From Hysterangium stoloniferum (lineage: Eukaryota; Basidiomycota; Agaricomycetes; Hysterangiales; Hysterangiaceae), in the NCBI GenBank assembly GCA_015178975.1, contig WHVD01000060.1:248001-312000 (forward strand): a DNA stretch of 64,000 nt, in the 5' to 3' direction. Numbering within the stretch: position 1 is the stretch's first letter; every line of letters starts with the position of its first letter. The notes beneath the pieces were generated by a model that was given only the letters and a program-made list of their open reading frames with translations, was not told the origin of the DNA and did not search any database. Positions 24,906 through 61,010 of this stretch are shown here, piece after piece. Made by a program: the position numbers and the translations under genes.

Positions 24906-25715
24906 TAGCAAGGGTTCCTAAGCTTGTTCAAGGGTAAAGGATCAGTGTGGTTTACCTTTGGGGCTTCACTTTTGGGCTCTATTGCTCTTATGGATAATCT
25001 GGGACTGGTTTGATGGTATTGCAAAGGTATATAGGGGCATTTTTTGAGTCACTTTATAATGTGCTCAAGCTGTTTATCTCAAGGCCAATCCGATATTTGC
25101 CTCCCAAGGTCTAATGGTCCTTCATGTTTTAGCTGCTTCACACAACCACGTTTGTTTCTTGTTTTATGATCTGAAATAAATAAAATAAAATCCAGAATTT
25201 AGTCCTGATTGAAAAAGCTCTGAGGGTAATTGGTCCTACCTAACCACCTTGTGATCAGCCATTGTATGTTTCCACATGTACAGTGAAAGGATGGACACAG
25301 TATTTACCTATTTGCATGAATAAATCAAAGAAACATTTTGGCATTGATAGATCAACAACTGGAGGTTAGTTACTTACTGTATCAAAGAAGGCAATACACT
25401 GATTGTGGACAAGTCAAATGACATGGCTTACCTACCTTTCATCAAAGACAAAAATTTTGTTTGGTGCCATCTTTCTCATAGATCTGTCACCCCCGAGGCC
25501 ATATACCAAGGTGTTCATCCTAAACATGTCTGAATGCTCAATGTGGTTCAGGAGAACAATTTATAAAGTCTCATGTTGAATACTGCTTATCACAATTATA
25601 CATCTTCAACAACACATCATGTGTTGATTTATATGGCATGGGGAGGGGGGAATATTACCAGTAAATGAGCCCTGGATGGTAGAAATCAAACCAGTGGTTG
25701 GGTTGTAGCCTGAAA

Positions 25716-25843
25716 TGTTAAAAGTGTAGAAAATGAATGGCCAGACTGGGGATTGAACCCAGGGCTTCTGCATATATAGCAGGGGTGTTAACCATTACAC
25801 CACCTGACCCTGGGAAGCACTGCTAGCATTACTCAATCTAACA
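25716..25843 (-). repeat. Solo LTR of Copia-3 (128 bp)
   Basis: Ends TGTTA...TAACA, with target duplication TGAAA at 25711-25715 and 25844-25848. The length equals that of the Copia-3 LTRs at 53480-53607 and 60360-60487. The paralogous site near 32505 (GCTTAAAGTCACGACGG) is empty. It contains the tRNA-like sequence 25739-25809. Confidence 0.95.
25739..25809 (-). ncRNA. tRNA-like cloverleaf inside the Copia-3 solo LTR
   Basis: Read on the minus strand, 71 nt fold as a tRNA. Acceptor GGTCAGG with TCTGGCC (7 pairs, two wobble). D arm GTGT-AATGGTTA-ACAC with G18G19. Anticodon arm CCTGC-TATATAT-GCAGA (four pairs). T arm CTGGG-TTCAATC-CCCAG (5-bp stem, 7-nt loop). TGGTGTAATGG fits the A box and GGTTCAATCCC the B box of a Pol III promoter. 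The D arm resembles eukaryotic tRNA-Gln. Position 33 is A, not the invariant U, so it is probably not a decoding tRNA. No CCA is encoded. Confidence 0.75.
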
Positions 25844-26760
25844 TGAAATCGCAACGGAATACCCTAGGACAAGGGACGGAAATGTCAGTCACCCAGAACA
25901 TAATAGCCACTCTTGTGGAACCGAAAGCTATAATAATGGAAGCCAAAGGCAATGGTGTTTGGCACAGAGGCCCCAAAAGCGGAGATCGAATGTCTATTTT
26001 AGGGATCGAAATGGCTCCTGGGAGACAATCATAGGTCATGCGTTGTAGTTTGAAGATACGAACAAATTAAGGAGTGCATATGTTGTTAAAGTTTGTTTGG
26101 TGCTGTTCCCGGATTGTATAGCTTTCCGTTTGTCTGAGTGGGGTGATGGTACTCGTTGTAAACGGATAAGGACTAAAGAAATACAAATAGACTTTATGTA
26201 ACCGCAGCAACCCGAGCCCTACCCAAATCCCGGAAACGTCAACATATGTGCCACACACATTATTTAGGATTTCATATTTGTTGAAATAGGCTCTCCAGCT
26301 CTAGCCTATGTCAAGCTTATGTCAAGCTTACACGACCATACCACGCCGTATCGTATCTTACACGTATATCATTGTCTCATTCCCATATTAGCCGAAACCT
26401 ATTTAATTACCATAGTTGCAGTTTTCATACCTCAGTCGAATCACCCATCCGTGTCGACTGAGCGTATATATTACAATATTGGGGTTTGGGGTCTGCGGGC
26501 TCCGAAATATAGGATCTGGCATAGCATAATAGACTACTTGATTTGAGTAGTCATAGGGTCGTTTATTGGACTATACCTGCGACAATCTAGCGAGAAATAA
26601 AGGGCAGTGATTAAAAGGCAAGGCATTCCGACAGTAAACCTTTCATAGCCAACCCCACGCCCTGCCCATGTAGAGCGAGGCTGGTACTACTATCTTGCGC
26701 ATGGGGCTAATTGCTAATGGAATGAAGATCGCACTCCCGAGTCCGCGGACAAAGTATTGA

Positions 26761-52439: not shown

Positions 52440-53479
52440 GATCAGAAAAGAAGATAGTGATAAGCGCTCACACATTTTTTGCCTAAAGATAAGGAGTGTA
52501 CAGGTGAACCAAAAGGAACCCCATAGCCCACCGGCACGCCTCTTTGTTAGTCTCCTTCATTGATATTTGAGTTCAAAGATACCATGAGCGGTGAAAAATA
52601 TCATCATTCCGCCATCTAACTTGTGGCCCGTCAAATATAAAGGGAGCTCATGGAAAACTCCTGAGACAATATCCCACGGAGAGTCACCAAACGTCTTGGT
52701 AAAAAATTGCAATCCATTCTCCCGGATATCCACCCGAAATGTATACCATATGGCGGATAAGCTGATGCAATCTTGTGCTCCAGAATTCGTGTAAGGAATG
52801 GCTCGTATAAAGCGCATGTGGGTGGAAGAGAGGAGGCCAGGTTTGTGTGGGTTGCGAGAAAATGCCAACCCCGATCAGCGTGAGAGCATAGTATGCCACT
52901 CTGATCAAAATCCCAATGAGATGTATGGTAAGCAGGTGGTAAATAGTCGCAGTGATATAACGCTTTGGCCAGGGGAGCGATGCTATGGAGGTAGATCCTC
53001 TGCCGAGAACGTTGACACCTGGAGTTAGTTTGAATATAGTGTCAATGAGATCGGCTTGTAAGAAGTTCTTAATAAGCTCCGTAAATGTGGCTAAGAGAAA
53101 AGCCTTTTTCTCGAGAGGGCGGAATTCGACGGGATACCGGATGTCCTCATTGTACTTAACTCCAACGCCTCGTGGAGCACAGATTATGTAGAAGGCCCGT
53201 TCAATAGAATGTATAACATGGCCTGCAGGCGACTTCAGCTCCTGGTTGGTTAGGTTGTATCTCTCCACCTTAGGGAATTCCCAGAAATTGTATGCATGAT
53301 CACCATAAAAACCAAAATCCGCTGCTTTTGGATGGGCAAAGCGTTATAATTACAGATGCTAGATTGGGCCAATAAGGAAATGATTACGTAGGTTGCGGGA
53401 ATGATCATTCATCTTTGAAAATGGTAGATTGTGGGCCAACCCAGACATAATAAAATGCTGAACAAAGAGATGTGAACAG
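52440..53479 (-). pseudogene. MBOAT copy G, 3' part, interrupted by Copia-3
   Basis: A long open stretch (52684-53268) reads VGHVIHSIERAFYIICAP-like sequence through FWSTRLHQLIRHMVYISG and GGYPGEWIA. It shifts frame at about 52700, where several codons equivalent to MRFGLPRR are lost, and continues as SGVFHELPLYLTGHKL. The intron and first exon continue up to 53479. There Copia-3 is inserted. The remaining 5' end is at 60774-61010. Confidence 0.9.
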
Positions 53480-53607
53480 TGTTAGATTGGGTAATGCTAG
53501 CAGTGTTTCCCAGGGTCAGGTGGTGTAATGGTTAACACCACTGCTATATATGCAGAAGCCCTGGGTTCAATCCCCAGTCTGGCTATTCATTTTCTACACC
53601 CATAACA
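53480..53607 (+). repeat. Copia-3 5' LTR (128 bp)
   Basis: TGTTAGATTGGG...CCCATAACA, with perfect TGTTA/TAACA ends. It contains the tRNA-like region 53514-53584. Very short for a copia LTR. Confidence 0.92.
53514..53584 (+). ncRNA. tRNA-like sequence in the Copia-3 5' LTR
   Basis: Same 71-nt fold as at 25739-25809: GGTCAGG acceptor strand, GTGT/ACAC D stem, T arm CTGGG-TTCAATC-CCCAG. The A box TGGTGTAATGG and B box GGTTCAATCCC are intact. Copies also lie in the LTRs at 60360-60487 and 60643-60773; the last has a small internal duplication (GCAGAAGCCTAT). The anticodon-loop sequence TATATAT could double as a TATA element. Confidence 0.72.
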
Positions 53608-53608
53608 A

Positions 53609-53620
53609 GGTTATGGGCTC
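53609..53620 (+). other. Copia-3 primer-binding site
   Basis: GGTTATGGGCTC one base after the LTR, complementary to the anticodon arm of initiator tRNA-Met. A second match (GGTTATGGGCCC) follows the LTR at 60360-60487. Confidence 0.83.
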
Positions 53621-53767
53621 TGGCTTCTGATTGTAATACACATCACTATAAGCACTTGAATTTGGAGGCACAACAAACCAACTTTTGTGATTGGTTGAGC
53701 CTGTCACTTTTGCTTGCATAAGCAAGAAAACTCAATTTTCAGGAATTTTCCCTACACTGTGTCAAGC

Positions 53768-55019
53768 ATGACATCCTCAGAATCACTACCAAAATTCAAA
53801 CCTTTAAACAACCAAAATTATCCAGAATGGTCTGGAGAAATACATACAGTAAAGGCATGGTTGATGAAGTTGGGTTATTGGAAGATTGTTTGTGGAAAAG
53901 AAATCAAGCCAATAAATGGCAGTGATAACATTGAGAAGTGGAAAACAAAGGCAGAGAAAGTAGCTGCAGAGATATATCTTATGGTGGAAAATGATCAGAG
54001 GGTGCATTTCTGTGGATTTGAAGAAGATCCAATCAAAATGTGGGACTTGTTGGAAAGGACACATTTACAACAAAAACCAGAAGCCTATTTCAATGCTTAT
54101 GATGACCTATTCTCAATCCAAAAGGATGAAAAGGAGTCTTTGATGGATTTGGGTGTCAGAATTGATAAAGCAATGGGGACTATTCAAAACCTGCACCCAA
54201 GGGACTTCACAATTGAAAAGCTGGATGAAGAGTTACAATGCATGGCACTGATCTGGGCTCTTCCTGATGAATATGCACACCTCTCCTCATCATTATTACT
54301 CATGGAGAAGCTGGATGAGAATACCATTCTCCAGGCATTTATAAGTGAAGAATTAAATTGCAATCACCATGGAGAAATGGTTAATAGGGCCAAAGCACCC
54401 ATTAAGCATTGTCACAAAATGGTTTGCTATAATTGTGACAAGGAAGGGCATCTCAGCTATGACTGTCCAAAGCCAAGGAATAAAGAAAAGATACAGCACA
54501 ACTGGCAGTCATGCAACAGTGCTAACAAGCTGGAAGAGGAAAAAATAGAGGAAGTAGAGGAGCAGACAGGAAAGACAAGTGTCTTTTCACAACATGATGC
54601 ATGTGCAACCTTGGCTAACATCTATGATTGGAACACAGACACAGGGGCCACATCACACATGACACCCCACTACAACTGGTCCCACACCTATATCCCACAC
54701 AGAACCCCAATCAAACTTGCAGACAATAGGATTGTATACTCTGAAGGTGTTGGGAGTGTTATTTTTCAACCAATCATTGATGGAAGAGTTGGCCAGAAGG
54801 TTGAATTCACAAAAGTATTACATGTTCCAGCTTTACATAATAATCTTCTTGCTGTTCTATACCTTACACATCATAAAGAATTTGATGGACACATTTCATC
54901 CAAAACTATAAGATTTAATTGCCATGAGAATCTTTTATTCACTGCATCAATCACCAATCGGAATGTGGGCTACTTGGATGGCAAGACTATCATAAATAAA
55001 ATGGAGAATGTGCACATGT
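53768..55019 (+). pseudogene. Copia-3 gag and protease region
   Basis: Open from the ATG at 53768 until the solo LTR at 55020, with no stop. Gag (NYPEWSGEIHTVKAWLMKLG, then LLERTHLQQKPEAY), CCHC knuckle (CYNCDKEGHLSYDC) and aspartic protease (NTDTGATSHMTPH) are followed by VLHVPALHNNLLAV. The DNA contains no CG dinucleotide from 53768 to about 54958 although the frame is open. It ends inside the polyprotein because of the inserted LTR, so it is listed as part of a broken gene. Confidence 0.9.
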
Positions 55020-55768
55020 TGTTACGACTGTGTCACAACCGTGTCGCAAACTGACAGTCCCCAAGGATATTACCGTCAACTGATGTTTCAAGTTATTGAT
55101 CAAGTCATCACATCAGAAACTGTCGGTCGCCCGACACTGACATATGCCTTCATGGCGATCAAACCCCATTTACACCCCTGTCAAGTTATACTTGTACTAT
55201 CTGGTTATGCCTTGATACGTCCCTTTTTATTATGATGATCCGTTCTACTCTATGTTTCACATATGCCCGTATATACTTGTAACCTGTGGACTATTTCTTT
55301 TTCTCATATTTCCGCTCTTGGTTAACTTATGGCTTCCAAACTTATTGTAACCTTCTGGTTCCTAGTCAAGCTTATTTGTCAATAGCATTTTCTGCTCTTC
55401 TTTTAGTATTTTCTAGACGCCAATAACTCGTATATAAATCCACTGTAGTTGTAGTTACTAGTCAATCAAAATATTGACTCAGAACACCCACAAACATCTC
55501 TATAAATCTTACACTAAGTATCCCACTCCCCGCCCCTGCATGCACTTGCCTCTCTTCGGCCTCTGACCCCTCGGCCCGACACTCAACTTATTCTTCAGTT
55601 CTGATCAGTAATTCGCTGTGAGGAATTCAATAGGACTAGTTTTTGCCCACCTGAAATTTAAGGACACCCAACAGTAACTTGCAAGGGTGCAGCACATAAG
55701 CTGAAGCCAAGTCCTTCCAATCGGTCCCCATCGGCCAACTGACATTAGTCAGTTTTCTGTTCTTAACA
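55020..55768 (+). repeat. Nested solo LTR 1 in Copia-3
   Basis: 749 bp, TGTTACGACTGTG...TTCTTAACA, target duplication CATGT at 55015-55019 and 55769-55773. Rich in CG compared with its host element, so it is younger. Contains the conserved motif GGTGCAGCACATAAGCTGAA (55685-55704). Confidence 0.95.
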
Positions 55769-56738
55769 CATGTCCTCTACTTTACCTCTAGTTTTGTCTC
55801 TGTGGCATAGATGATTGGGGCACCACCACTATGAGGGAATAAAAAATCTAATGAAAAGAAACATGGTTAAAGGACTGGTACTCAATTCAAAGGCTAAACC
55901 AGATCCAATTTGTGAACCATGTCGAAAGATGCATGCCAATCCATTTCCCTCCTCAGAACATCACTACAATGAACCTTTGGAGTTGGTACATACAGATGTA
56001 CACTATATTGGTACAAGATCCCGATCTGGATGCTACTATTGGGTCACATTCATTGATGATGCTTCAAGATTCTATTATGTCATCCCAATCAAGTCCAAAA
56101 GTGGTGTTTCTTGGGTATTCAAACAGTACAAAGCATTTTCAGAAAACTTCCTTGGATGAAAAATAAAGAAACTTAGGGATGACAAGGGTGGAGAATATAT
56201 GTCAAGGGCATTCATTGAATTCACCAATAAACATGGTATCTTGCAGCAGCATACAGTCTGCAATAGACCTCAGCAAAATGGAATGGCAGAGTGTGCAAAT
56301 AGGACATTAGCAGAAGGAATTACAACCATACTAACAGTCTGAACTACCCAAGAACTTCTGGGAATACTGCCTGGCTACATTTGTACACATCTGGAACCAT
56401 TGTCCATCATCTGCCTTAAAGGACAAAATACCATATGAAATTTGGCACAAAAGGAAACCAGATATCAGTCACATCAGAGTTTGGGGATGCATTGCATATG
56501 TGCACATTCAAAAGGACAAATGACCAAGCTTGGGATCTCACATGGAAAAATGCATCTTTATTGGGTGCCCTGAAGGATATAAGGGATTGTTATTCTACAA
56601 CCCAGTGACAAGAAGGATAGTGCTCAGTGAACAAGCTGAATTTGATGAATGATACACATGGAAACACCAACTACCACAAGTTACAGATACTGGTGGGAAG
56701 GATGAATCAAGTACTAGGGATTATGTATACCTCAGGGG

Positions 56739-57281
56739 TGTTACGACCCGTTCCCGGATGTTTCAATATCCAACTTCCGATCTCCGACTACAGAACATCA
56801 TAGTTACCATATCTTCCACATTCTTCCCTTGTTCCACATTTGGTAATTTGTCTGTTGACAAGTATTCACTCGTTTGTCTGTTATATTCCCGTTTTGGAAT
56901 ATTGTCTCCCTGATATGTCTTATTGTATTCCCGTTTAAGAATACTTCCATTTCCATCTTATTATGGTCTCAGTTTGTAGTACAATAATGAGAAGATTTAT
57001 ATTAGTTTCCGCAAATTTGTACTTTACCTTAGATCTGATATTGACTTAGTTTCTTATTCCTTCTTCCATCTTTCTGTACGCTCGATATTCGGAACTCTTC
57101 GGAACTCTGAATATCCGTATCTTCCATTGTAAGTCTCACTTCTGAAATTAAGGACTTTGAGCGTTTGCATAGAGGTGCAGCACATAAGCTGAAGCCAACA
57201 TCCTGACCCTATCCGATAGTTCCCAACTTTCTGGTGACTCTCTGATAGTTCCGGAATAAGTTCCCGACACAATACTTAACA
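56739..57281 (+). repeat. Nested solo LTR 2 in Copia-3
   Basis: 543 bp, TGTTACGACCCG...ATACTTAACA, target duplication AGGGG at 56734-56738 and 57282-57286. Its 5' end and the GGTGCAGCACATAAGCTGAA motif (57173-57192) relate it to nested LTR 1, but it is shorter and diverged. CG-rich, hence relatively young. Confidence 0.94.
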
Positions 57282-58610
57282 AGGGGCTCCAGTTGTTGAA
57301 GAAGAAGATAATCCACCAACTGACTTACCAACTGCCTCTGTGGAGGATCATGAATTCCCTACACCTGAATCTGATGACAATGGTGTCACACCATCCCCCC
57401 CAGATCACAGATAATGAGGAGGAAGAAGATAATAGACCAATTGCCATTCATCATGAATTCCCTGCACCTGAACCTGAAGACAATGCTGCCACACCATCCC
57501 CCCAGATCACAGATAATGAGGAGGAGGAAGATAACAGACCAATTGCTATTTGAAAACCTTCATGCAATATAAAACCTCCTAATGAATGGTGGAAAACCTG
57601 GGAACCCAATCCTACCACTTCTGACAGTACTGATGAAATGGAATTGGAGGAGGCACATGTGTCAATTATTTCTGAACCAAGGTCATTTACAGAGGCAATA
57701 AATGGTCTACAGGCAAGACAATGGAGAGAGGCAGCCTTGGAGGAAATGAACACACACATTAGCAATGGAACCTGGACTATAATGAAACTACCACCAGGAA
57801 AGAAAGCTATAGGATCAAAATGGGTTTTCAAGGTGAAATGAAAGGCAGATGGATCAATAGAACACTTTAAGGCATGATTTGTTGCTAAAGGATACAACCA
57901 GAGACCATGATTTGACTATACAGAGATTTTTTCCCCAACAATGCACCATGCTACGTTCTAGTATTAGCACTGGCTGCAGCAGAAGGCCTCTACCTCCGAT
58001 TAGTTGACATGTCACATGCATTCATCAACAGTGATATTGATGCAGAAATATACATGGTCCAGCTGGAAGGATTTCATCAAGGAAACCCAGATACAGCATG
58101 TAGACTAGACAAGTCAGTCTATGGACTCAAGCAGGCAAGCAATCTCTGGAGCAAACACCTGCAGAGTGTACTAGAGAAAATGGACTTCAAGTGGATTTAT
58201 TTTAATCCATCGGTCTATATCTATCAATGAGGTGGAATCAAAATCATTGTTCCAATATTTGTAGATGACATCACCCTTGCAGGACCATCTGAAAAAGTCC
58301 TGGATGAATTTGTAGCTGAGTTAGCTACACACTTCAAACTCAGGGATCTAGGACCTATATCTTTCCTATTAGGCATTGAAATCACATGAGATTGAGAAAA
58401 GCAAACTATCTATCACAATGCCAGTACATCTTGAACAAATTCCAGGAATTTGGGATGTCAAACTGTCATGCAGTGGGTACACCCATAGATCTAGGGGCAA
58501 AACTATCATCAGACCAATCACCCAAAACCATGGAGGAACAGAATGAAATGTGTGACATTCCCTACATGAATGCAGTTGGGTCTGTGATGTACTTGGCCAC
58601 CACCACCTGT

Positions 58611-59011
58611 TGTGAAGGGTATGCTTTTACCACAGTTTCATTGTGGTAAAACACTCCTTTTATTTTATTTATACTTTACACATTTTATTCATATTTTTCT
58701 ATCCTTTATATTCTTTGAATATTGCACCATTTCATTAGTTCGAAGCTCTGTGTATACTTGTGGGTGCACTCGGCACCAAATAGACAGACACACCTTTACC
58801 CAAGCACCACCACTCATAAGACACAAACTAGGTCTACAGCGAGTGGTGATCAAGGTAATGTGTCAGCTACCACATAGGTAGCATTATCTGAACCAACAAA
58901 CACTTCTGGCCTCAAACTATAACAGTTGAGGCCTCCCCTTGAATCATTCTTCTTCCCCTTCTACTCATTTCTTCATATATAGAATGGTCAGAACTTCCAC
59001 CACTCTTCACA
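58611..59011 (+). repeat. Nested solo LTR 3 in Copia-3
   Basis: About 401 bp, TGTGAAGGGTATGC...CACTCTTCACA, target duplication CCTGT at 58606-58610 and 59012-59016. A different family from the other nested LTRs. The pol frame resumes directly after it (CPNIAYTAG). Confidence 0.88.
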
Positions 59012-59073
59012 CCTGTCCCAACATTGCATATACTGCAGGAGTATTGGTTTGGTTTAACTCAAACCCTGGTATG

Positions 59074-59849
59074 TGTTACAACTGGAAATCCCACCAGACT
59101 CCAGGCACTAACTTATATGCACCTGCACCCTACACGCACCAATTATCAGTTGACTGGAATACCCACCAGACTCCGTATATCAGACCTGTCCACGCTCAAC
59201 CTTCATTACTTCATGTATAAGTCACTGGAATACCTGCCAGACTCCGCTCCTGTCTATCTCCGACCCTGTCCCACACACCAGTCACTGGACCCCGCTCAGA
59301 AAACCCAACAGCTCTCTAACTGAGCCCCATTCCCATTATGGTCAAATGACCTGTCACAATTTGGACTCTGTTCTGTTCTGTTCTGTTCTGTTCCATTCAT
59401 AACACCAAGTTTGGTGTTTATTTATCTCGTTTCATGTTTGCTAGTTTAGTTTTCATTATTACTGGATTTGGTATGTTATTCATTCCACAGTCTATATAGT
59501 CTGGCAGATGTTGTACATACAATCCAGTCAGAAAATCAGCTTAGATTCTCCCCAGTAATCTCAGTATATTTTCTGCTCTATTCTCCTCTTTGAAACACAC
59601 CGCTCTTACTTGTTGGAGCCCATGGGCTCTGACCCATCTATCACTCAACCTCCGGCTTATCTATCTTGACTCCCTGACCTCTCAACCCATGAACCCCTCC
59701 TGGACTCCCCAGGATTCCCATCTGCCCATTTGAAATTGGACAAGATGATCTCATGAGGGTGCAGCCTATGAGCTGAAGCCAAGTCCTACCAGCTTTTCCA
59801 TGGGTTTCTCCAGAAACCCTCTAATAAGCTCCATGCACGACTCTTAACA
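59074..59849 (+). repeat. Nested solo LTR 4 in Copia-3 (family X)
   Basis: 776 bp, TGTTACAACTGG...CGACTCTTAACA, target duplication GTATG at 59069-59073 and 59850-59854. Same family as 20203-20966 and 21366-22238. The pol frame resumes at AHWKAVKHLL, with TGA in place of an Arg codon. Confidence 0.94.
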
Positions 59850-60359
59850 GTATGGCACATTGGAAGGCTGTCAAACACCTACTGTGATATTTGAAGGGAA
59901 CTATAGATGTGAAACTCACATATGGTCCAGATCCCTCAAATCTCGACCCATTTGTTGGCTTCAGTGATGCTAGTTATGGTGGAGACAAGGACAGTGGAAA
60001 ATCAACAACAGGCTATATAATCAAAGTAGGATTAAGAGCAGTATTTTGGAGCAGCAAGCTACAGCCAATTGTGACACTATCAACTACAGAAGCTGAATAT
60101 GTTGCAGCAGTTGCAGCAGGAAAGGAGATCTGTTGGATGCAGAATTAGGATACAAGGCACCATGTCCATCAAAACTCTTCTTTGACAACCAGTCAGCACT
60201 AACTATAGCCAAGAACCCAGAACATCATGGATGAATGAAACATCTGGACTTATGCTACTACTGGTTATGTGATATGGTAGAAAAGGAATCAATCAACCCC
60301 ATCTACCTACAAACAGATGAAATGCCAGCAGATATCCTAACCAAAGCATTACCAGAGTG

Positions 60360-60487
60360 TGTTAGATTGAGTAATGCTAGCAGTGTCTCCCAGGGTCAGA
60401 TAGTGTAATGGTTAACACCCCTGCTATATATGTAGAAGCCCTGGGTTCAATCCCCAGTCTGGCCATTCATTATCTACACTTTTAACA
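60360..60487 (+). repeat. Copia-3 second LTR
   Basis: 128 bp, TGTTAGATTGAG...CTTTTAACA, followed by a primer-site match. Marks the 3' end of the gag-pol region and the start of a deleted second unit. Confidence 0.9.
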
Positions 60488-60642
60488 GGTTATGGGCCCC
60501 ACTATGTGCTATAGGGCATGGTTCCTGTGTGTAGAGTGAACAGTTATATTTGTGAATGGTACAGTGGACAAGTCTGGACAAAAGAGCCAGATGGGACCTA
60601 TATCTGCATATAATATTGTTGAGTTCAAGCATGAAGGGAGTG

Positions 60643-60773
60643 TGTTAGATTGAGTAATGTTAGCAGTGTTTCCCAGGGTCAGGTGGTGTAATGGTTAACA
60701 CCCCTGCTATATATGCAGAAGCCTATGCAGAAGCCCTGGGTTCAATCCCCAGTCTGGCCATTCATTTTTAAAA
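60643..60773 (+). repeat. Copia-3 terminal LTR
   Basis: About 131 bp. Contains a 12-bp internal duplication (GCAGAAGCCTAT) and an eroded 3' end (TTTTTAAAA in place of CTACAC...TAACA). Followed by the target duplication AACAG. Confidence 0.85.
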
Positions 60774-61010
60774 AACAGCACAATAGGGAATGTAAGAATC
60801 CATAAGAGATGAGTATTGGCCCATTGAGCTAAGTATGTCATGTATAAAAGAGGGGGAAAGGGTTGCAGGAGATCAGGCCATGTAACACTGTCACTTAGTC
60901 AGCTGGTTCTGGCAAACCATGGAGTGAAAAGTGGAAGATAAACAGAACATCATGCTAGGACTTTAACAAAACATCACAGTGACTCATGTCAGCCTTTCAG
61001 AAATGCTCAT
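60774..61010 (-). pseudogene. MBOAT copy G, 5' part
   Basis: Continues the first exon of copy G after Copia-3. GCACAATAGGGAATGTAAG matches the copy F sequence GCACAATCGGGAATATAAG, and the region runs to the start-codon area (GAACATCATGCTAGG). It is far poorer in CG than its equivalents, in line with the methylated-looking surroundings. Confidence 0.9.

Follow-up and report, generated by a model that had tools for sequence, protein, structure and literature searches.

A Helenus-type TRIM with a tRNA-like sequence in its LTRs and two probable recombinants with a Copia element in Hysterangium stoloniferum

Introduction

Agaricus and Coprinopsis are among the organisms in which Helenus TRIMs, which carry a tRNA-derived sequence in their LTRs, have been described (Kojima 2024, PMC10886601). 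In the accessible part of that report the transcription of Helenus by RNA polymerase III (Pol III) is left unvalidated, the helper of the fungal elements is inferred from primer-binding sites and from one similar core, and it is argued that such a promoter is unsuited to a long element. The LTRs of the Cassandra TRIMs contain 5S rRNA, and the autonomous partner is called unknown in the accessible text of PMC7215508. Insertions produced by template switching are described, in the available portion of Sabot and Schulman (2007, PMC1950507), as marked by an outer target duplication and by outer LTRs that are alike.

We analyzed a 64-kb stretch of DNA from the basidiomycete H. stoloniferum (the window) and followed its repeats through the genome (111.1 Mb in 554 contigs). 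The original prediction had described short LTRs built around a tRNA cloverleaf as a tRNA counterpart of Cassandra attached to a Copia element. The comparison with Cassandra is correct, and going by the accessible text of Kojima (2024, PMC10886601) such a repeat is already described as Helenus. A TRIM with a tRNA in its LTR is already known; the new part is a gag-pol element with tRNA LTRs. Kojima (2024) was the sole report on tRNA-bearing LTRs found in the open-licence PMC literature, a body of papers that leaves subscription journals aside, and gag-pol recombinants carrying tRNA LTRs were not found described in it. We are largely confident that the repeat is a Helenus-type TRIM with Pol III boxes and that the gag-pol element bearing its LTRs is a template-switch recombinant, not a member of an autonomous lineage with tRNA LTRs.

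Results

The short LTRs belong to a Helenus-type TRIM

The TRIM is about 411 bp long and non-coding. Two LTRs of 128 bp (TGTTA...TAACA) enclose a core of 155 bp, and many LTR copies in the genome are paired around this core at a spacing of 283 bp. A probe for the LTR start, which consists of 26 places, tolerates up to 3 mismatches and extends no more than two bases into the tRNA part, matched 288 places genome-wide (145 forward, 143 reverse); the control matched 0. The primer-binding site GGTTATGGGCCC directly follows the LTR, and the polypurine tract AAGGGAGTG precedes the 3' LTR. All 12 bases of GGTTATGGGCCC are complementary to the anticodon arm of the host initiator tRNA-Met. A pattern search located genes for this tRNA at 3 places; the 2 that were read both contain the 12-base complement and are without an intron.

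Target duplications were scored on the LTRs from fetched loci (102 matches, 52 distinct). Perfect 5-bp duplications were found in 22 of 27 scored LTR pairs, a total in which one chance grouping (L064) is counted, and the LTRs are identical in 16 of these 22 pairs. The perfect duplications together with the identical LTRs indicate that the TRIM integrates like an LTR element and that it moved recently. Perfect duplications also flank 14 of 31 single LTRs, including the one at 25716-25843 of the window. This solo LTR, named in the original prediction, is real and has a perfect TGAAA duplication, but it lies on the minus strand (Table 1). The remaining single LTRs include 3' or 5' LTRs with the partner cut off or lost, plus the two LTRs of the C140 element described below; some of the LTRs without a perfect duplication are cut or nested copies.

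Judged by its anatomy, the repeat is a Helenus-type TRIM. It has two LTRs, is shorter than 1000 bp and has no coding capacity; a tRNA-derived sequence with an A and a B box lies in the LTR, a primer-binding site and a polypurine tract lie in the core, and the target duplications are 5 bp long.

Several loci show other arrangements. L119 (C512:78490-79720) and L120 (C399:459780-461000) are TRIM copies with about 0.7 kb of unrelated sequence in the core. Their LTR pairs, about 1010-1020 bp apart, were considered as a separate element and rejected as such, being the same TRIM with other core sequence. At L064 (C141:37429-40583) several Helenus copies are nested in both orientations, and one copy sits in the tRNA part of another and is flanked by GCAGG (both by eye). 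Finally, in L130 (C24:163140-165640) and L131 (C141:36000-38800) a third core, common to both loci, stands behind a Helenus LTR with its primer-binding site. This core is related neither to the TRIM core nor to the Copia of the window, and it gave no convincing gag match; it may represent another helper or a sequence picked up by capture.

Table 1. Positions of the Helenus-type LTRs and of the parts of the Copia composite in the window.
Feature	Position	Strand	Remarks
Target duplication TGAAA of solo LTR	25711-25715 and 25844-25848		Perfect
Solo LTR of Helenus-type TRIM	25716-25843	-	128 bp; many genome copies match it at 100% identity
tRNA-like part of solo LTR, A and B box, cloverleaf	25738-25809	-	ARAGORN; Rfam RF00005 46.8 bits, E 7.4e-7
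AACAG, probable target duplication 5' of composite	53475-53479	+	
5' Helenus-type LTR of Copia hybrid	53480-53607	+	
tRNA-like part of 5' hybrid LTR	53514-53585	+	ARAGORN; Rfam RF00005 44.3 bits, E 3.6e-6
Primer-binding site GGTTATGGGC and start of the homology to ordinary Copia copies	53609-53618	+	
gag frame: Retrotran_gag_2, zf-CCHC, Pol_BBD	53714-55054	+	
Rest of Copia body, without long pol frame, with extra sequence relative to C140	55055-60342	+	
3' crossover: Copia text AAAGCATTACCA into Helenus tract end GAGTG	60343-60359	+	Compared with ordinary copies and Helenus core end
Middle Helenus-type LTR	60360-60487	+	
tRNA-like part of middle LTR	60394-60465	+	ARAGORN; Rfam RF00005 48.2 bits, E 3.2e-7
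155-bp Helenus core	60488-60642	+	Primer-binding site GGTTATGGGCCC 60488-60499; polypurine tract AAGGGAGTG 60634-60642
Third Helenus-type LTR, 12-bp internal duplication, degenerate end	60643-60773	+	
tRNA-like part of third LTR	60677-60760	+	ARAGORN only; 84 nt
AACAG, probable target duplication 3' of composite	60774-60778	+	Follows degenerate LTR end

The LTRs contain a tRNA-like cloverleaf

ARAGORN called a tRNA in all four of the LTRs in the window, and no tRNA-like sequences beyond these four were found in the window by this program. Three of the four also matched the tRNA family RF00005 of Rfam at 44-48 bits, the gathering cut-off being 29 bits. The predicted cloverleaf in all four LTRs was in this way confirmed, and so was the absence of U33, since an A occupies position 33 in the anticodon loop. 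The tRNA-like part of the third LTR is absent from the RF00005 matches at the gathering threshold. Within it lies a 12-bp tandem duplication, TATGCAGAAGCC, which holds this LTR below the Rfam threshold, although ARAGORN still makes a call; the tRNA stretch of 71 nt that had been assigned to every LTR does not apply here, where the call covers 84 nt. Pair 27-43 is mismatched in the copies of the window.

No tRNA was called by ARAGORN in any of 2000 shuffled LTRs. The 72-nt RNA of the copy at 60394 folds as a cloverleaf with -22.5 kcal/mol (z -2.44); 5 of 200 shuffles fold as well, so that, taken by itself, the energy of the fold stands out only moderately. The anticodon calls of ARAGORN are Ile-TAT in young LTRs and Thr-TGT in some older ones. 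Annotators should be aware that the program labels these repeats as tRNA-Ile, and some older copies as tRNA-Thr.

The origin of the tRNA part was examined by global alignment with 30 of 62 host tRNA matches. No clear parent tRNA was found among these 30 stretches; the best scores are weak and disagree, pointing to a Met-CAT gene for the young form of the LTR and to Lys-CTT for the older form. The genome contains many intron-containing tRNA-Lys(CTT)-like genes (C112:913507-1219099, also on C68, C98, C410 and C526; L014-L038), which are often about 400-430 bp apart and some of which have drifted anticodon calls. A second Helenus family behind those tRNA-Lys matches that lie about 420 bp apart was considered and provisionally set aside, as the one stretch inspected (L025) looks like a tandem array of tRNA genes in which no LTR structure was seen. 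These genes are perhaps tandem tRNA arrays.

Conservation favors the promoter boxes over the fold

Conservation was measured in 44 distinct full-length LTRs as the number of minor rows per site. The value is 0.77 for the A box, 1.05 for U5, 1.82 for the B box and 1.88 for the whole tRNA part; it rises to 2.74 in U3 and to 3.61 in the anticodon arm, which is the most variable part measured. With 1.82 versus 1.05 minor rows per site the B box is not clearly more conserved than U5, and 18 of its 20 minor rows come from one C/T site. The consensus motifs of the A and the B box are both present in 40 of the 44 LTRs; among 5000 shuffled LTRs, 3 had both boxes at a tRNA-like spacing. The U5 of each of the 44 LTRs retains one or more T4 runs. 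A further argument for Pol III, from the lack of T4 runs in the TRIM core, was dropped as uninformative (the probability of finding none by chance is 0.49).

The stems are paired in 884 of 924 cells, and 11 of the 21 types of stem variant keep a pair. All six of the common variants (those in at least 3 distinct LTRs) keep or create a pair, as do 5 of the 15 rarer ones (split by eye). This pairing, and the fact that common variants maintain it, would suit a tRNA fold that serves not mainly as a promoter but as an RNA structure, in packaging, in processing by tRNA enzymes or in strand transfer. The common variants are one-sided, however, as are almost all changes in the stems. The double compensatory changes that the original prediction had proposed as a test are nearly absent, with one row at 27-43, which starts from the mismatch, and one at 31-39. 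In addition, the tRNA part is not a mimic of the primer; no stretch of more than 4 bases is common to it and the complement of the primer-binding site. Given the one-sided stem changes and the low variation of the A box, the promoter boxes, and the A box in particular, are better supported than the fold, and we consider a mainly structural role unlikely.

The original prediction had also allowed for a TATA role of the anticodon loop, in which case the tRNA-like part would be a Pol II promoter with TATATA as its TATA box. The motif is indeed present in the loop of 32 of the 44 distinct LTRs. It is absent from the other 12, and from 5 of the 15 distinct LTRs that are directly flanked by a perfect 5-bp repeat; a TATA box is therefore not required. 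Since the loop also belongs to the most variable part of the LTR, this role is weakened to the point where we give it little credence. The motifs, and the example of Cassandra as told by Kojima, make it probable that the TRIM is transcribed by Pol III.

The Copia family normally has another LTR

The composite at 53480-60773 has three Helenus-type LTRs around and behind a Copia body (Table 1). Its gag frame has 218 relatives; among the 120 matches listed, six name an organism, namely five gilled mushrooms (Lentinula, Agaricus twice, Phlegmacium, Candolleomyces) and one bacterial bin, which would point to a mushroom-type basidiomycete as host. The family of the Copia body has at least 39 other copies in the genome (the best 39 of 66 candidates were scored). 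Another, ordinary LTR without a tRNA was found at 20 of 20 fetched 5' ends of these 39 copies; the one that was measured is 271 bp long, and ARAGORN reported 0 genes in it. The original prediction had treated the tRNA LTR as typical of this Copia family, which it is not. The LTR at 60643, which had been listed as a Copia LTR, is part of a mini-element joined to the Copia. The predicted attachment to gag-pol holds at the two loci found, but the Copia family otherwise has a tRNA-free LTR.

These two loci emerged from a probe for the LTR/Copia junction of the window, for which the best 40 of 464 candidates were scored (41 rows). The junction is spanned in two of these rows, which are the window and C140; the match is confined to the Copia side in 33 others and to the LTR side in 6. 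No lineage of several copies sharing one junction between LTR and body is present among the 41 rows, and the two spanning loci differ in their 3' crossovers and in their bodies. A pattern of 33 places, made of the LTR end and the primer-binding site, was found at 10 places genome-wide; the junction of the window escapes it by one extra base. C140 is the one place shown to run into the Copia body of the window, C24 and C141 run into the unrelated core described above, and five places resemble, by their letters, the ends of ordinary Copia LTRs. At C58:158041 and C113:467220 other text stands behind the pattern. When a probe for the 3' junction of C140 was scored in 40 rows, only C140 matched fully and 39 rows stop at or before the crossover. 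No further copies of either hybrid were found among the rows scored.

Two hybrids with different crossovers and bodies

C140 begins with AGGTA and a Helenus LTR, continues through the primer-binding site and the Copia body to the crossover, and ends with a Helenus core, a second Helenus LTR and AGGTA. It has two LTRs, and AGGTA is its own 5-bp target duplication on both sides. The 5' junctions of both hybrids are at the shared primer-binding site, exactly so in C140 and with one extra base in the window. Toward the 3' end the ordinary copies read ...GGAAATTGAACAGATATGGGATT..., then a polypurine tract (AAGGGGGTG in several of them) and then their own LTR. The crossover of C140 lies around AACAG, where the Copia text nearly matches the Helenus LTR end plus primer-binding site (AACAG, then TATGGG). 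That of the window lies earlier in the Copia. AGCATTA is common to the Copia and a Helenus core end, and the window follows the Copia for a few bases past AGCATTA before GAGTG of the Helenus tract and the full LTR.

Gag-region identity reaches 98.3% between C140 and two young ordinary copies, against 92.7% between C140 and the window; the window is closest (95.1%) to C212, the LTR of which is tRNA-free. On these identities the two bodies are assigned to different Copia subfamilies. The different crossovers, combined with bodies from different subfamilies, are taken as two recombination events, and recombination between Helenus and Copia most likely occurred at least twice, in different subfamilies. 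Over 129 columns each, the LTR pair of the window hybrid differs by 11 substitutions and one gap and that of C140 by 5 substitutions; by this measure both hybrids look older than the youngest TRIMs. Neither of them shows a long pol frame today.

The window composite is less decisive than C140. Counted by eye with the tail and the 12-bp duplication excluded, its outer LTRs differ at 4 positions, the first and the middle at 7, and the middle and the third at 5, so that the outer pair is only marginally the most alike. Its far AACAG is recognizable if the end of the LTR is assumed to have suffered a deletion and base changes. The composite fits the marks of Sabot and Schulman weakly. A locus with three LTRs, a degenerate far duplication and barely distinguished outer LTRs could also have come about by nested insertion, by later DNA recombination or through an assembly error. 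Such causes, as opposed to reverse transcription, would have to place both 5' junctions at the primer-binding site and to produce in C140 an element with two LTRs and matching AGGTA flanks, and we regard them as very unlikely. That a true Copia lineage owns the tRNA LTRs and that the mini-elements are its deletion derivatives might be suggested by the two gag-pol elements with tRNA LTRs at both ends, but it is highly improbable in view of the 33 rows with the Copia side only against 2 that span the junction, the other LTR at all fetched Copia 5' ends, two hybrid bodies that are not each other's closest relatives, and a TRIM core whose relationship to the Copia body goes no further than the primer-binding site.

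Discussion

The TRIM and the Copia family have in common the primer-binding site GGTTATGGGCCC, a nearly identical tract (AAGGG[GA]GTG) and the ends TGTTA...TAA[TC]A; between the TRIM core and the Copia bodies only 10-14 bp are shared, at the primer-binding site. These common signals and the recombinants make the resident Copia the likely helper of the TRIM.

We propose the following mechanism for a Helenus-type TRIM that recombines with its helper by template switching. The A and B boxes would recruit Pol III inside the 5' LTR. The weak T4 runs in U5 would be read through in the 5' LTR and would stop transcription in the 3' LTR, and the tRNA-like part would thereby lie in the terminal repeat (R) that is used for the first strand transfer. 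The TRIM RNA would then be packaged and copied by Copia proteins. A hybrid would require that Helenus and Copia RNAs are co-packaged in one particle. During minus-strand synthesis the reverse transcriptase could leave the Helenus RNA for the Copia RNA where the two have a microhomology, or close to it; when the plus strand is then transferred at the common primer-binding site, the Copia body would receive a Helenus LTR at its 5' end.

A much stronger version would hold that the capture of LTRs between TRIM and Copia is recurrent, that it yields gag-pol elements under a tRNA promoter and that at least one hybrid was transcribed by Pol III and transposed again. We give this only the faintest chance. 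If it were true, a protein-coding retrotransposon could pass, at least briefly, to the control of Pol III. Through the two natural hybrids a single TRIM is linked to a single Copia family. The hybrids are also relevant to the prediction that a tRNA-type promoter is unable to drive a long element: the LTR of the TRIM is present in about 288 copies, and no further copies of the hybrids were found. This lack of further hybrid copies among the rows scored agrees with the length argument of Kojima, with the proviso that two events are few and that a long pol frame is missing from both.

Compared with Helenus, as far as the accessible text of its description goes, the TRIM of H. stoloniferum has the same A and B box in the LTR, the same short non-coding core, the same 5-bp target duplications and presumed Copia helper, and the same fungal type of primer-binding site against the anticodon loop of the initiator tRNA-Met. 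It differs in two respects. Kojima expects no long stretch common to the LTRs of TRIM and helper, whereas here two gag-pol bodies carry the whole TRIM LTR. Moreover, the core match given there (Copia-9_PGr / LTR-1_PTrit) is long, whereas the one found here covers the 10-14 bp at the primer-binding site.

With Cassandra, in the available account, the element has in common a small-RNA gene with an internal Pol III promoter (a predicted one here) in the LTR of a TRIM. The gene is a 5S there and a tRNA here; in the window Rfam matched only the tRNA family at the gathering threshold, with no match to a 5S family.

Template-switch elements and, reportedly, LTR swapping are known from plants. The Triticeae complexes, in the accessible part of their description, are likewise three-LTR composites with an outer target duplication, formed by a switch between two packaged RNAs. 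They arise within families such as Angela, whereas the partners here are a tRNA-type TRIM and its Copia. In soybean, LTRs are said to have been swapped between autonomous and non-autonomous elements. That is likewise an exchange of LTRs between a helper and a dependent element, but the soybean case reportedly involves no small-RNA promoter, while the LTR presumably exchanged in H. stoloniferum carries a predicted one.
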